A DNA stretch of 64,000 nucleotides from Aliarcobacter sp. (GTDB lineage Bacteria; Campylobacterota; Campylobacteria; Campylobacterales; Arcobacteraceae). Shown in pieces: positions 1,296 to 14,724 of the stretch. Each line of letters opens with the position of its first letter. Within the stretch, counting starts at the first letter, position 1. The position numbers and the translations under genes are program-made. Where the stretch lies: positions 1 to 64,000 of the forward strand of contig JAQTXA010000013.1 of NCBI GenBank assembly GCA_028689025.1, read 5' to 3'. The notes under the pieces were generated by a model. That model did no database searches, was not told the origin of the DNA, and saw only the letters and a list, made by a program, of their open reading frames with translations.

Positions 1296-3902
1296 TTATC
1301 TTTTAAGATTGATTAAGGTATTTAAAATGTCATCAGATGTAGTAATTGATTTAGCATTTGCTTCAAATGCTCTTTGAAATACCATTAAATTTACTAAACT
1401 CTCTGATAAATCTGCTGTACTTAATTCTAACGTTTTTGATTCTACTTTTGCTGTTTTATTATTATTTAAATTATATATTGGATCTCCTGATTCATTAGTT
1501 TTTCCTAATAAATTATCTCCCATTGGATTTAATCCTCTATTGTTATTAAATACAGCAATTGCTACTTGACCAACTGCAAATTCAGCTCCATCTTGCTTCA
1601 TAGTAATTAATCCTGTACTATCTACTGAAAACTCTCCAAATGCTGAATCTGAAATTCCTAAAGTATCTAATCTTAGTTGTAAACTTCCTTTTGAAGATGT
1701 TTGATCTACAGTATTAACTATTTCTATAAATTCAGCACCAGCTCCTTTTCTTCCTGAGTAATTCCCATCTATTTCTAATGGGATTGCATTTCCAGTGGTT
1801 ACTGCCGCACTATTTAATGTACTTCCTGCTGAGAAATTAATAGTTGAGCCGGAAATTGTAAATGTAGTAGTTAATGCCGTATTAGATAAAGCTGCAGTTA
1901 AACCAGCTATTATCTCAGATAAAGTTGCATTTAAATCTGAAGTATATGAAACAGTTGCTGTAGTTGATCCATCATTAATTTCAAGGGTATAAGTTGTGTT
2001 ATTAGCAGCTAAAATATTACTTACTGAAGTATCTGTTGCATTACCTGAAATAGAACCACCATCATCTATAATTTTTAAACTTCCATTAAATTCAACATCA
2101 TAATTTGAATCTAAAGTTTCTACCACTAAATGTTCATTTACAACTCTTGCAGAAACATACTTTGATAAACTTGGATTCGTATTTATCCCATTAACTAAAT
2201 CTTCTAATGTAGTTGCATCTAATATCGAAGCACTTAATGCTTGAGGAGGAGTTCCACCATCATTTGGGATTGGAAGAGTAAATTCTTTCTCTTTATCGTA
2301 AATAGTTATTCCATAAGAATAATCTTTTGGAATATTACTTTCTAAATCCAATTCTGTTTTTGTATAAACATCTTGCTGTTTACCTGTAATCAATTTAGAC
2401 AAGGCATCTCGTGATGTTTCTAATGCAGCAACACCTGAACCTTTGGCTGCATTTGTAGTTGTTTGATAATTCCCCTGAATAGTAGTACTTCCTGATACCT
2501 CTCCCACTTCAGATATTATAAATTCTTTACCTGGTATTAGTGATTTTATTTGGATAATTCCCTTTAACATATCAACATTTTTAGTTGAAGGGTAGAATGC
2601 ATCACCACTTTCTAGTACATCAGAAGATGCTCCCATACTTGGATCTTCCTTAACCATGGTAGCCACAAGTCCTGGAATTTGAGAAATTTTATCTGCTAAT
2701 GCTTTATATGTAGCAATTTTACTTGCCTCAACATCATAAGATTTTACTGCATTACTTTTGAATGTTTCTGCACTACTATTAGGATCTGTAGTTCCAAAAT
2801 TAATAGATAACGTTGTTCCATTATTTGTTATCACAGATCCTGTTGTTCCCCCAGCTAAGCCTGCATCCTCTATTGCCTTTTGAAGTCCATCTAATATTTC
2901 AGGAACATCTGCTGTTGTATCTGAATCATAATAAACTGTTGTACCAGAAATTGTAATCGAATATCTTGTATTATTTTCTGCTGTTGGTGTAACTGAAGTA
3001 ATATATGGATCTAATGGTACTCCTGTTCCACTATCTATAGATGATAAATTTCCAGTATCTCCAGATTGTAACAATGAAGTTTTAAAATCCTCACTTGCAA
3101 TTGTTGGTATATAATTTTGAGATATTTTATTTCCATTAATATAAGCATATATTTGATCTCCATCTTTACCAATAACAGAATCACTGCCCGTTTTAAAATT
3201 AATTTGTGAAGTTTGAGATATTGATGTTGAAGAAGATGCATCGGGCTCATCTTTTAATTTTTGTAACCAACTCGTATAATCCTTTATTGCTTCTTCTACA
3301 TCTGATATTTTTGAAGATTTTGTTTTCTCTCCATCTCCACTAAATACTGTTATTGAATCAGATTTTGCTGTTGTTGTATAATCTGTTGCTTTTGCAGTAA
3401 TTGTCTCTACATATGTGCTATGATTTATTATTTTTGAACTTAACAATTTTGTATAATCTGTTGTAAATACATTTACATTTGGATTTGTACTAGTTACATC
3501 ATTTTGACTATCAATTGCAGTCATCATCCAACCTTGCACTTCATTCCCGGCAGCATCTTGAAGGGTCCCATTATCTCCCATTCTAAAATTCCCTGCTCTT
3601 GTATAAAGTGTCTCAGCAGCTCCTGCACTTCTTGTATTTACTACTGTAAAAAAACCATCACCACTTAGAGCCATATCATAATTTACACCAGTTAGTTTTA
3701 AGTTACCTTGCGTATAAAGTTTTTCTGCATCAAGTACTTTTGATCCCTTACCAATTCTATCTTGGTACATTTGATCTGCAAATGAAATTCTAGAGGCTTT
3801 ATAGCCTATAGTATTTACATTTGCTATATTATTTGATTCATTATCTAAAGCTTTTTGTTGTGACGATAATCCTGAGATTCCTGTCCAAAGTGCTCCTATC
3901 AT
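1296..3902 (-). CDS. flgE: Flagellar hook protein FlgE (long form, 868 aa)
   Basis: N-terminal MIGALWTGISGLSSQQKALDNESNNIANVNTIGYKASRISFADQMYQ and C-terminal LMVFQRAFEANAKSITTSDDILNTLINLKR are typical of hook/rod proteins. Confidence 0.9.
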   Translation of the reverse strand: MIGALWTGISGLSSQQKALDNESNNIANVNTIGYKASRISFADQMYQDRIGKGSKVLDAEKLYTQGNLKLTGVNYDMALSGDGFFTVVNTRSAGAAETLYTRAGNFRMGDNGTLQDAAGNEVQGWMMTAIDSQNDVTSTNPNVNVFTTDYTKLLSSKIINHSTYVETITAKATDYTTTAKSDSITVFSGDGEKTKSSKISDVEEAIKDYTSWLQKLKDEPDASSSTSISQTSQINFKTGSDSVIGKDGDQIYAYINGNKISQNYIPTIASEDFKTSLLQSGDTGNLSSIDSGTGVPLDPYITSVTPTAENNTRYSITISGTTVYYDSDTTADVPEILDGLQKAIEDAGLAGGTTGSVITNNGTTLSINFGTTDPNSSAETFKSNAVKSYDVEASKIATYKALADKISQIPGLVATMVKEDPSMGASSDVLESGDAFYPSTKNVDMLKGIIQIKSLIPGKEFIISEVGEVSGSTTIQGNYQTTTNAAKGSGVAALETSRDALSKLITGKQQDVYTKTELDLESNIPKDYSYGITIYDKEKEFTLPIPNDGGTPPQALSASILDATTLEDLVNGINTNPSLSKYVSARVVNEHLVVETLDSNYDVEFNGSLKIIDDGGSISGNATDTSVSNILAANNTTYTLEINDGSTTATVSYTSDLNATLSEIIAGLTAALSNTALTTTFTISGSTINFSAGSTLNSAAVTTGNAIPLEIDGNYSGRKGAGAEFIEIVNTVDQTSSKGSLQLRLDTLGISDSAFGEFSVDSTGLITMKQDGAEFAVGQVAIAVFNNNRGLNPMGDNLLGKTNESGDPIYNLNNNKTAKVESKTLELSTADLSESLVNLMVFQRAFEANAKSITTSDDILNTLINLKR

Positions 3903-3979: not shown

Positions 3980-5437
3980 CTATTTTTTTAATTCAATAGC
4001 TGTTTTTAATAGATCATCGGAAGTTGTGATCGATTTTGAATTTGCTTCAAATGCTTTTTGATATATAAGTAATGCAGTTAAACTATTTCCCAAATTTGAT
4101 TTACTTTGTTCTAATGCACTTCCTACTAATTTATTTAATTTACCAGCATACTTTGCACTACCAGATTCACTAGTTGCACTATATAAATTTCCCCCTTCTG
4201 GAGATAAACCTTGCTCATTAGTAAAAGCTGCTGTTTGGATTTTCCCAACAAGAAATTTATTTTCTCCATCTTTTACATACACTATTCCATCTTCAATCAC
4301 AACATCACCAATACTATTTGATAACTTTAAATTAGATAAACTTAATTGCATATTATTTAGATTTAAATTTTCTTGTCCTGTCAAATCAATTTTACTATCA
4401 ACTTCTAATAATTGAGCTCCTGCATTCCCCAGTACAGATTCTAAAGCTGCTTTTGAACTATCTACGGCACCTTTCCCCGTACCTAATTTTGCTTCTGTAA
4501 CATTTAAAGGAACTACTAGATTTTTATTTATTTCAGCTAAATCAATTTTAACTTCTTTTCCTGGAATCAATGAATTAATTGTTAATTTTCCTGAACCATC
4601 AATAGAAGAACTTAATCCTTGTATATTGGAAATTTTGTCTGAAAACTTTTTCAATGTTGTTTGAATATCAGTATCAAACTGTTGTTTATATACATTACCA
4701 TTAATAGTAATATTTATTACATCATTTTCATTTACTAATCCAGTTAAATAATTTGAATAATCTACAGTGGTCATTTGAGAAGTTGAAGCTGTTGATGCTA
4801 ATGTTGAATTTGAAGCATACAAATCAAGCTTACTTTTATAATCAGCAATTAAAGCATCCACATCTGAAAGCTTAGCTGATTTTGTTTTATAATTATTACC
4901 CGTAGTATCTGCAAAAATATCATCCGTTGCAGATAAAGTATAATCAGTAGATTTAGCATTTATTGTTTCTAAAAAATTAATATTATTTACTGTTTGAGAA
5001 GCTATTGTTCTTGAATAATTATCTGTGAAAGATGTATTCGCAGGAGTAGATACTGAACTTAATCCTAAAACATTCATATCATTCTGAGTTTTTAAAAATC
5101 CATCTGGCGCCATTTTAAAATTACCAGCTCTTGTATAATAATTTTGTACAGTACCATCTTGTTTCGTATCTCCAATTATAAAATATCCCTTACCTTCAAT
5201 AGCAACATCATAAGTATCACTTGTAAACTTTATTCCACCTTGTTGAGACATTGCCTTTGTTACATTTTGAACATTTACACCTTTACCATATCTATTTTGA
5301 TACATCATGTCTTCAAATGTTACTACATCTTCTTTATATCCTACAGTATTAACATTTGTTGCATTATTAGATTCAACATTTATTGCTTTTTCAAAAGTAT
5401 TTAATCCTGAGATTCCATTCCATAATGCACTTATCAT
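3980..5437 (-). CDS. flgE2: Second hook-family protein (FlgE paralogue, 485 aa)
   Basis: N-terminal MISALWNGISGLNTFEKAINVESNNATNVNTVGYKEDVVTFEDMMYQ and C-terminal LLIYQKAFEANSKSITTSDDLLKTAIELKK. Confidence 0.85.
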   Translation of the reverse strand: MISALWNGISGLNTFEKAINVESNNATNVNTVGYKEDVVTFEDMMYQNRYGKGVNVQNVTKAMSQQGGIKFTSDTYDVAIEGKGYFIIGDTKQDGTVQNYYTRAGNFKMAPDGFLKTQNDMNVLGLSSVSTPANTSFTDNYSRTIASQTVNNINFLETINAKSTDYTLSATDDIFADTTGNNYKTKSAKLSDVDALIADYKSKLDLYASNSTLASTASTSQMTTVDYSNYLTGLVNENDVINITINGNVYKQQFDTDIQTTLKKFSDKISNIQGLSSSIDGSGKLTINSLIPGKEVKIDLAEINKNLVVPLNVTEAKLGTGKGAVDSSKAALESVLGNAGAQLLEVDSKIDLTGQENLNLNNMQLSLSNLKLSNSIGDVVIEDGIVYVKDGENKFLVGKIQTAAFTNEQGLSPEGGNLYSATSESGSAKYAGKLNKLVGSALEQSKSNLGNSLTALLIYQKAFEANSKSITTSDDLLKTAIELKK

Positions 5438-11057: not shown

Positions 11058-11990
11058 TTATTTGTTATGAGAAAATTCAGCAATTAATTTATCTAAATCA
11101 TCACCTATTAAGTCATCTGTGCTATCACCATGAATATGTTTAGCAATAGCTACATCTTTAGTTGCACCATCATCTTCAAATAAATTATTTAAATATGAAG
11201 ACAATTTTCTAATAACAGACATAACTCTTTCAATTTTTTGTCTATTAATATCATTAAATTGCATTAATTCCATAGCTTGAAAGATCTCAGAATCTTCTGA
11301 ATTAATTAAACTCTTTATACTTTTTAATGACTCTGATACTTTATTAGTATTTGATAAGTGTTCATTAAACACTTTTATATTTGGAAATTTGCTATTTAAT
11401 GTTGAAAGCAAATTAGCTTGCGTAGTAAAATATGACTCGAAATCTTTTATATAATTTCTTAATTCATTATTATTATCAAGCGTCAAACTTAAAACATCAA
11501 ATATTTGAGAAACTTTTTCTTCAGAATCATTTGCAACTTGACTTAATTGATTAACTACTTTTGTATCTTTTTCAGCTGGGAAGGGGAATATTCCTTCTTT
11601 TATCTTAGTATTAGTCCAATCATTTACTATCTCATCTTCACTTCTATCTGGTTTCTTTTCAGATTTTTTCTCTACAACAACTTCTTTTTCAGGTTCAGAA
11701 ATAATCTCTTCCACGGGAGAAGATGTATTCTCATTTGCGTTCTCTATTTCACTTAATAATTTTTCGATATCAGAACTGCTAACACTAGCAGTAGTTGCTT
11801 TTAATTCAACAACATTCTCTTCTGTTTTCTCATTATCAAATTTGATATCTTCTTTTAGACCTTCTGTTTGAGATAATAACTCCTCAATTTCTTGAGTATT
11901 AACTGCAACAGTTTCATCTTCAGCCTCAACATCATCTTCAATATCAAGTCCATTCATTAAAGCTTCAATCTCTTCTTGGCTCATACTCAT
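11058..11990 (-). CDS. cheZ: CheZ-like CheY-P phosphatase with FliM-type N-terminal peptides
   Basis: MELMQFNDINRQKIERVMSVIRKL matches the CheZ active helix (D-x-x-x-Q). N-terminus has MSQEEIEALMNGL and two further EIEELL/DIEKLL repeats. cheY is immediately upstream. Confidence 0.75.
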   Translation of the reverse strand: MSMSQEEIEALMNGLDIEDDVEAEDETVAVNTQEIEELLSQTEGLKEDIKFDNEKTEENVVELKATTASVSSSDIEKLLSEIENANENTSSPVEEIISEPEKEVVVEKKSEKKPDRSEDEIVNDWTNTKIKEGIFPFPAEKDTKVVNQLSQVANDSEEKVSQIFDVLSLTLDNNNELRNYIKDFESYFTTQANLLSTLNSKFPNIKVFNEHLSNTNKVSESLKSIKSLINSEDSEIFQAMELMQFNDINRQKIERVMSVIRKLSSYLNNLFEDDGATKDVAIAKHIHGDSTDDLIGDDLDKLIAEFSHNK

Positions 11991-12004
11991 GATAATACCT
12001 TATA

Positions 12005-12376
12005 TTATTTTTTTAATACTCCGTCAAGCTTCTCTTTTAAAACTTCCGCGTTAAATGGTTTTACTATATAATTATTAACACCTGCCTTTAACGCAGTAAT
12101 AACTTCACCTTTCCCACCTTCAGTTGTAATCATAATGATAGGTGTCTTTTGGTGCATACCTTCGCCCCTAACTTTTTTAACTAGTTCTAGGCCATTCATA
12201 TTAGGCATATTCCAATCTGTTAATATAACATCATAGCGACTTTCACCAAGTAATTTCCATGCCTTTACACCATCTTCGGCTTCATCGAAACTATCTTTAG
12301 TAAATCCTAATTGCATAACCACATTTCCAATGATTCTTCTCATTGTAGAGCTATCATCAACTATTAGAATTCTCAT
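12005..12376 (-). CDS. cheY: Chemotaxis response regulator CheY
   Basis: MRILIVDDSSTMRRII...DVILTDWNMPNMNGLELVKKVR...MITTEGG...YIVKPF single receiver domain. Confidence 0.95.
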   Translation of the reverse strand: MRILIVDDSSTMRRIIGNVVMQLGFTKDSFDEAEDGVKAWKLLGESRYDVILTDWNMPNMNGLELVKKVRGEGMHQKTPIIMITTEGGKGEVITALKAGVNNYIVKPFNAEVLKEKLDGVLKK

Positions 12377-13342: not shown

Positions 13343-13723
13343 ATGAATTTAGAAGAATTAAAAAAACTTCGCGAAGAAAAATTTTTAGCTCATAAAAGAA
13401 AAAAACGAGAATATTATTTAAAGAAAAAAGAAAAAGAAGTAAAAAAAGTTTATGATTATGATAATGAACTTAATAATGACAATTTTACACTTACAATAAA
13501 AGAAATAATTAAAGCTCAAAAAAATTATTTAGACAATAGAAAAGATATAATAATTACAAAACTAAATACTTACAAAGAGAAAAAAAAAGAGTATTATGAG
13601 CTTAATAAAGAAAAAAGACTTGAATATGACAAAGAGTACAGAGAAAAAAGAAAAGAAGAGCTTAAGCAATATAGAAAAGAGTATTATAGAAAATTAAAAG
13701 AAAATAAAAGTTTAAAAGAGTAA
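13343..13723 (+). CDS. K/E/Y-rich helical orphan protein
   Basis: 126 aa, extremely charged (KEYYRKLKENKSLKE etc.), tightly packed between flgG and the next ORF (3 nt gap). Confidence 0.65.
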   Translation: MNLEELKKLREEKFLAHKRKKREYYLKKKEKEVKKVYDYDNELNNDNFTLTIKEIIKAQKNYLDNRKDIIITKLNTYKEKKKEYYELNKEKRLEYDKEYREKRKEELKQYRKEYYRKLKENKSLKE

Positions 13724-13725
13724 AA

Positions 13726-14724
13726 ATGGCAGATGATAACAACCAACTAGATCCTAATAATATAAATTATACAACTAATTCTTATGGTTCAAATAGTGAA
13801 GAAACAAATGAGGAAGATGTTGATAATAATTTGGAAGAAATAAATGAATCTCCAATTGAATTAAATGAAGAATTTATAAAACCAAAAAAAGCACTTCTCC
13901 CCCAAATATTAATAGGAATTGTTGCACTTTTACTTTTACTCTTGATTATTGGTGCAGTACTTTACTTTAGTGGTTTTTTTACACCTAAAGAAATAGAAAA
14001 AGTTGAAATAAATGAAGTAACTCCTCTAGTAGAAAAAATTGAAACAAATGAGAATAGTTATAAATTTGATATAAAAGATATCAATTCTAAAAAATTGAAT
14101 GAACAGCTTGCAAATTTAACTAGCAAAAGTATAAATAATGAAAAAATTGAAGAAGTAGAAAAAAAAGCGAATGAGAAAAAACTATTTGAGGAACAAAAAC
14201 AAAAAGAAGATGAATTATTAAAAAATCAGGAAAAAGAGCTATTAGAACAAAAAGCACAACTTGAAGAAAAAAAACAAGAATTAGAAAAACAAAAAGCAGA
14301 GCTTGAAGCGATGAAAGAGCAAGCAATACAATTAAAAAATGAACTAACTAATACTACTAAAAATGATACTGAAGAAACACCTAATCAGAAAATAGGAAAA
14401 AATATTAATTCAAAAGATACAGATATAAGTAATGAAAATAATAATTCAATAAAAAAAGAAAATAATAGTAGTTTCCTATTATTCATTAGTGTTGCAAAAA
14501 TAAAAGGCGTTTTATATAAAAAATACTTAGATAAAATTGTTGCTGTAAATCCTGATATTAAGCTATGTAGAGATGATGGGAATAGAATTGAACTCTATTA
14601 TGGACCTTTTGAAAATAATGAAGATAGAGCTAATTTATTAAGTAAATTAATTAGTAATAAATTTAATGAAGCTTATGAATTAGAATTTACACAAGAAGAG
14701 TATGATAAAAGATGTAACTATTAA
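13726..14724 (+). CDS. Single-pass membrane protein, coiled coil plus C-terminal SPOR-like domain
   Basis: TM ILIGIVALLLLLLIIGAVLYF; coiled coil KLFEEQKQKEDELLKNQEKELLEQ...; C-terminal YKKYLDKIVAVNPDIKLCRDDGNRIELYYGPFENNEDRANLLSKL. Confidence 0.75.
   Translation: MADDNNQLDPNNINYTTNSYGSNSEETNEEDVDNNLEEINESPIELNEEFIKPKKALLPQILIGIVALLLLLLIIGAVLYFSGFFTPKEIEKVEINEVTPLVEKIETNENSYKFDIKDINSKKLNEQLANLTSKSINNEKIEEVEKKANEKKLFEEQKQKEDELLKNQEKELLEQKAQLEEKKQELEKQKAELEAMKEQAIQLKNELTNTTKNDTEETPNQKIGKNINSKDTDISNENNNSIKKENNSSFLLFISVAKIKGVLYKKYLDKIVAVNPDIKLCRDDGNRIELYYGPFENNEDRANLLSKLISNKFNEAYELEFTQEEYDKRCNY

Follow-up and report, generated by a model that had tools for sequence, protein, structure and literature searches.

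The reverse-strand gene at 11058..11990 of the window (the whole 64,000-nucleotide stretch of Aliarcobacter DNA analysed here) probably encodes a CheZ-family phosphatase of phosphorylated CheY (CheY-P) that carries several peptides for docking its own substrate, as suggested by sequence comparison and structure prediction. The peptide set comprises a FliM-type peptide at the N-terminus, two internal copies and, at the C-terminus, an equivalent of the peptide that ends E. coli CheZ (CheZC). The initial annotation had described three such peptides in tandem; the three segments are present, and the fourth copy at the C-terminus, IGDDLDKLIAEF, had been overlooked.

Locus, catalytic core and presumed substrate

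The features of the gene and its neighbour are as follows, all on the reverse strand.

11058..11990, reverse strand: cheZ, CheY-P phosphatase of the Campylobacterota type; ORF of 310 aa with ATG start
12005..12376, reverse strand: cheY (CheYz type), presumed substrate, 123 aa; Pfam Response_reg
11946..11981, reverse strand: motif 1, aa 4-15 SQEEIEALMNGL, FliM-type N-terminal peptide; profile score 27.8; AlphaFold2 helix 5-13
11862..11903, reverse strand: motif 2, aa 30-43 VNTQEIEELLSQTE, internal copy (core NTQEIEELLSQT from aa 31); detected by leave-one-out profile; helix 32-47
11742..11783, reverse strand: motif 3, aa 70-83 VSSSDIEKLLSEIE, internal copy (core SSSDIEKLLSEI from aa 71); detected by leave-one-out profile; helix 72-85
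11631..11945, reverse strand: acidic disordered linker, aa 16-120, holding motifs 2 and 3; 35 D+E and 11 K+R of 105 residues; low pLDDT
11175..11573, reverse strand: catalytic helical hairpin, aa 140-272; AlphaFold2 helices 140-201 and 206-272, mostly at pLDDT >90
11238..11252, reverse strand: catalytic pair D247-x3-Q251 (FNDINRQ); D-x3-Q invariant in 105/105 CheZ
11073..11108, reverse strand: putative C-terminal CheY peptide, aa 295-306 IGDDLDKLIAEF, CheZC counterpart; profile score 10.1; helix 296-307

The reading frame, its strand and its coordinates were as the initial annotation had given them, and the predicted protein opens with MSMSQEEIEALMNGLDIEDD. The annotation had also placed cheY directly upstream, which was confirmed with a gap of 14 bp; the same order, with gaps of 3-46 bp, was found in 44 of the 45 loci compared. 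The gene lies within a flagellar operon, upstream of a FlgEFG-type rod gene, a further rod gene, fliF, fliG, fliH, a fliN-type gene and then hook genes, as assigned by Pfam. The two tandem FlgE-like hook genes of the window (1296-3902 and 3980-5437, reverse strand) are of very unlike lengths, 868 and 485 aa. On the forward strand, a 126-aa Lys/Glu-rich ORF (13343-13723) directly downstream of a divergent flgG-type gene had no Pfam match, and neither had a 332-aa ORF (13726-14724), whose N-terminus is acidic and which contains one apparent hydrophobic segment as well as a stretch rich in Glu, Lys and Gln.

Judged by its sequence, the product is a genuine, divergent CheZ of the Campylobacterota type. 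It matched the NCBIfam model NF041271 (protein phosphatase CheZ) with E=4.4e-34, at 118 bits against an equivalog cut-off of 350, and reached only 11.7 bits with Pfam CheZ (PF04344; cut-off 30.7). Since both cut-offs are missed, CheZ proteins of Arcobacteraceae are likely left unnamed by automatic annotation. The nearest relatives were found in Aliarcobacter MAGs (85-87% identity), which places the window in an Arcobacteraceae genome, and a CheZ homologue was present in 246 of 298 genomes of the phylum. A FliM identity for the product was considered and ruled out, as it had no match to Pfam FliM or FliMN_C.

A total of 105 distinct Campylobacterota CheZ proteins (loci L004-L077 and L139-L176; 57 from Arcobacteraceae and 48 from other families) were examined. 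Their profile aligned by hhalign with that of six Proteobacterial CheZ proteins over 206 columns, with E=8.6e-5 and an HH probability of 32%. In this alignment FNDINRQ lies on FQDLTGQ, so that D247 and Q251 fall on D143 and Q147 of E. coli CheZ, and the claim of a catalytic D/Q pair with E. coli spacing is upheld. Phosphatase activity on CheY-P is putatively assigned by homology and by this pair. In searches of the PDB, phmmer with the single CheZ protein gave no match, and a profile search recovered E. coli CheZ (1kmi_Z) only at E=0.92. A long antiparallel hairpin that pairs as a four-helix bundle in the dimer is characteristic of CheZ. Foldseek with the CheZ model returned only unspecific matches to long helices, 1kmi_Z among them at rank 39 with a non-significant E=1.4, a comparison that is uninformative because long helical hairpins resemble many folds.

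The CheY face bound by the C-terminal peptide of E. coli CheZ also binds FliM. The best PDB match of the neighbouring CheY was H. pylori CheY1 (3gwg, E=4.7e-44), with near-identity along α4-β5-α5; the stretch ITTEGGK-EVITALKAGVNNYIVKPF is almost wholly common to the two proteins and near-invariant in relatives, in agreement with an adjacent cheY of the FliM-binding type. The next CheY-like match in the same genome showed 36% identity. CheYz, encoded beside cheZ, has been described as retaining key FliM-binding residues, unlike other Arcobacter CheYs (PMC9321776).

Peptides at the two termini

The peptides were scored on an external profile, with a 5% per-protein threshold of 5.3, whose training set was confined to FliM N-termini and to CheZ ends from outside Arcobacteraceae. 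Motif 1 reached 27.8, compared with 22.9 for the N-terminus of E. coli FliM, and contains the EIDAL-type core together with the N-cap Ser/Thr-Gln; the resemblance of aa 4-15 to the CheY-P-binding peptide of FliM, noted in the initial annotation, thus holds on a profile built from other proteins. CheZC of E. coli, which is known to bind CheY, scored 12.7 when held out. The C-terminal segment IGDDLDKLIAEF scored 10.1, and hhalign sets it against the C-terminal SQDQVDDLLDSLGF of E. coli CheZ.

Both terminal peptides reach far past Arcobacteraceae and were found in every distinct Campylobacterota CheZ examined. A FliM-like N-terminus was present in 105/105 sequences, reading M[ST]QE[ED]IE[AS]LM within Arcobacteraceae and usually MTQEELDALM in the other families, and a CheZC-like C-terminus, such as SNDDIEALIASFG, was likewise present in 105/105. 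As the sequences of the phylum-wide search set were retrieved through the whole protein, the terminal motifs in it are not an artefact of motif search; a second set of CheZ relatives was partly biased, with MSMSQEEI among its search patterns. The six Proteobacterial CheZ proteins compared, including that of E. coli, have the C-terminal peptide, and neither a FliM-like N-terminus nor internal copies were seen in these six.

When the N-terminal motif profile was run over the genome carrying the window, only CheZ and FliM were matched, the N-terminus of this FliM reading MAEFLSQDEIDALLDIAEQ. The FliY-like SPOA protein of the same genome (L117, C4 near 2259) had no EIDAL-type N-terminus, which leaves FliM and CheZ as the sole carriers found there. 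Elsewhere, FliM was absent in the family search from four genomes, namely G218, G313 and G323 (Arcobacteraceae genus g7) and G308 (g69), which are probably non-motile lineages. CheZ was absent too from G218, the only one of the four listed as searched for it.

Internal copies in the linker

In the CheZ sequences compared, the internal copies are an expansion restricted to Arcobacteraceae. A strict core pattern gave 107 internal matches in the 57 CheZ proteins of this family, compared with 8.4 in composition-preserving shuffles (sd 2.9; maximum 17 among 300), and no match in the 48 CheZ proteins of other families. Reversed linkers gave 40 matches against the 107 in forward orientation, as the motif is partly palindromic. 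The flanks, which lie outside the search pattern, were also enriched: V at -5 by 7.8-fold, S and N at -4 by 3.8- and 3.7-fold, T at -3 by 5.3-fold and I at +7 by 4.5-fold, with N at -3 and L at +7 among the further preferences. These flanks parallel the L-S-Q of FliM at -5 to -3, and the hydrophobic residue at +7 corresponds to the L of E. coli CheZC.

With leave-one-out profiles, which omit similar linkers and allow 5% false positives per protein, 0-6 internal copies were detected per Arcobacteraceae CheZ (mean 2.4), including both copies in the protein studied here. One relative, L019, had no internal copy detectable in this way. Near-identical adjacent copies in L068, L070 and L076 point to gain by duplication, and linkers span 90-238 residues in Arcobacteraceae compared with 34-101 elsewhere in the phylum.

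All three segments named in the initial annotation lie where it had placed them, SQEEIEALMNGL at aa 4-15, NTQEIEELLSQT from aa 31 and SSSDIEKLLSEI from aa 71, and the two internal ones are in a linker that is acidic (35 D+E compared with 11 K+R) and probably disordered, as had been supposed (pLDDT <50 at 17-30, 48-68 and 88-114). Their description as three FliM-type copies requires qualification. Motif 1 is strongly FliM-like and belongs to a phylum-wide N-terminus, whereas motifs 2 and 3 are weakly so when taken singly, and the internal set, of which this protein has two, is variable. Motifs 2 and 3 lack the Ala of EIDAL and scored 2.5 and 2.7 on the external profile, below the threshold of 5.3, while many internal copies of relatives scored 8-20. 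Support for these two motifs comes from the family-wide enrichment, the leave-one-out profiles and conservation rather than from the external score. Motifs 2 and 3 may act like FliM peptides, although they are not classed as such.

Conservation was compared across 17 genus-level relatives. Pairwise identity was 0.90 for motif 1, 0.72 for motif 2, 0.57 for motif 3 and 0.93 for the C-terminal motif, and 0.39, 0.13 and 0.21 for the successive linker stretches between them. Each internal motif is therefore set between less conserved flanks, motif 2 (0.72) between 0.39 and 0.13 and motif 3 (0.57) between 0.13 and 0.21. The pN/pS ratios were 0.13, 0.27 and 0.43 for motifs 1 to 3 and 0.12 for the C-terminal motif, compared with 0.33 in the catalytic domain and 1.03 in the linker outside the motifs. 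With synonymous changes close to saturation and many gaps in the linker alignment, the absolute values are rough, and it is the contrast that constitutes the result. In this contrast, motifs 2 and 3 stand out as islands under purifying selection within a linker at a pN/pS of about 1. Conservation of the motifs in close homologues had been set beforehand as one of the tests able to refute the proposal, and all three motifs were conserved by both identity and pN/pS.

AlphaFold2, run with 38 natural sequences, placed helices on all four peptides (5-13, 32-47, 72-85 and 296-307) and gave pLDDT <50 across most of the linker between them. In some relatives cheY and cheZ are in frame, and for one of them, L052, CheY plus CheZ 1-85 was modelled as a read-through with the stop codon as Ser to look for docking. 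The motif helices formed in this model, but the peptides were placed with low confidence, at a pLDDT of about 45-62, from a shallow alignment with CheY unphosphorylated and with no contact output.

Proposed mechanism, alternative readings and known systems

In the proposed mechanism, a helical-hairpin catalytic domain with D-x3-Q bears short helical peptides on disordered tethers, as seen in the sequence and the predicted structure. By homology with FliM and with the C-terminus of E. coli CheZ, each peptide would bind α4-β5-α5 of CheY with a preference for CheY-P. Once captured, CheY-P would be handed by the tethers to the active site, and the peptides would thus increase both the substrate concentration nearby and the rate of capture. 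Because FliM binds to this face of CheY as well, CheY-P bound to CheZ would be withheld from the switch, and phosphatase and motor would compete directly. If the protein is a dimer as in E. coli, about eight peptide sites would serve two active sites, and a local store of CheY-P would be possible. The number of internal copies, which varies within Arcobacteraceae, may tune affinity or capacity. The simplest consequence we infer is quicker and tighter capture of CheY-P together with direct competition with FliM. In E. coli CheZ, a short helix at the C-terminus, flexibly tethered, provides the main affinity for CheY-P, and a bridging of CheZ dimers by CheY-P has been proposed (PMC1447658). A more speculative extension, which we consider doubtful, is that Arcobacteraceae CheZ forms a multivalent scaffold in which each chain offers 2-8 peptide sites (four in this protein) and a dimer twice as many. 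A CheY-P in contact with a peptide and an active site at once would cross-link CheZ into reversible clusters, giving cooperative dephosphorylation and CheY-P buffering, with a strength tuned by gain or loss of peptide copies.

The reader of the FliM-like peptides might be not CheY but FlhG, a MinD-type ATPase, or a different protein of the pole, in which case the peptides would direct CheZ to the flagellated pole or convey a signal to the control of flagellar number. In other bacteria FlhG interacts with FliM/N via the N-terminus of FliM (PMC12826062), and motif 1 is the most FliM-like copy. In C. jejuni, the polar localization of FlhG needs C-ring proteins, but no stable interaction of FlhG with C-ring proteins was found (PMC6946799). 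We regard this reading as unlikely, given that the C-terminal copy aligns with a known CheY ligand and that the internal copies, like that ligand, have a hydrophobic residue at +7. Work by Lertsethtakarn from 2015 is also said to place the polar localization signal of H. pylori CheZ in its central domain, which counts against FlhG as the reader. Another candidate was CheO, a binding partner of CheZ, FliM and FliY in C. jejuni that has been reported mainly from Campylobacter, Helicobacter and Wolinella; it was set aside as a common reader of the three proteins here, being unlikely given this distribution (PMC9665402).

Other readings concern the internal copies. These could be of low affinity, or structural relics of repeat duplication in the linker, and add little, with only the N- and C-terminal peptides at work. 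Such a division would be in keeping with the low external scores of motifs 2 and 3, with a copy number that ranges from 0 to 6 (none detectable in L019), and with the CheZ proteins outside Arcobacteraceae, which are without internal copies. It is nevertheless improbable, because motifs 2 and 3 have pN/pS values of 0.27 and 0.43 compared with 1.03 in the surrounding linker and the internal copies of relatives reach 20 on the external profile. It seems very unlikely that the internal motifs resemble FliM only by chance, being unspecific amphipathic helices that serve self-association or the binding of some other partner, such as ChePep. Forward matches (107) exceed those in reversed linkers (40), and the flanks carry the N-cap pattern of FliM and CheZC, even though helices are predicted at the motifs and the 40 reversed matches reflect a partly palindromic motif. 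In H. pylori, CheZ localization requires ChePep (PMC11237671).

If CheZ does capture CheY-P through these docking peptides, the phosphatase competes for it with the motor by means of the peptide that the motor itself uses, and evolution has turned a bacterial signalling enzyme into a tunable substrate trap with several hooks. The natural series of CheZ proteins that have 0 to 6 extra peptides would allow direct testing. The phylum-wide N-terminal motif also offers a possible reason why regions of H. pylori CheZ beyond the active site might matter for chemotaxis. Mutants of that protein have been made at D189, at Q193, in the N-terminal 39 and in the C-terminal 12 residues (PMC11237671).

CheZ, its C-terminal peptide, the FliM peptides and the FliY precedent are already known. 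In the open-access literature, no account was found of Campylobacterota CheZ with FliM-type N-terminal peptides, nor of an expansion of these peptides within Arcobacteraceae; earlier work on H. pylori CheZ may have noted the N-terminal likeness. E. coli CheZ (PDB 1kmi) has a helical hairpin with D-x3-Q, like the one predicted here, and a C-terminal CheY-binding helix on a flexible tether, of which IGDDLDKLIAEF is the putative counterpart, but has no FliM-like N-terminus and no internal copies, and its sequence similarity is remote. The CheZ proteins of Helicobacter and Campylobacter are of the same family, with the N-terminal MTQEELDALM and the C-terminal motif, and differ in their short linker (34-101 aa) without internal copies. 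FliY of Bacillus and Thermotoga is a CheY-P phosphatase bearing an EIDAL peptide, and B. subtilis FliY combines EIDAL and CheC-like domains (PMC12826062). It thus provides a precedent for tethering a phosphatase by a FliM-type peptide, although its catalytic domain is of the CheC type, it is part of the C-ring and it has a single copy. The N-terminal peptide of FliM shares the SQ-x-E-I-[DE]-A-L core; in FliM this peptide occurs once, on the switch protein, whereas here it is found on the phosphatase and repeated.
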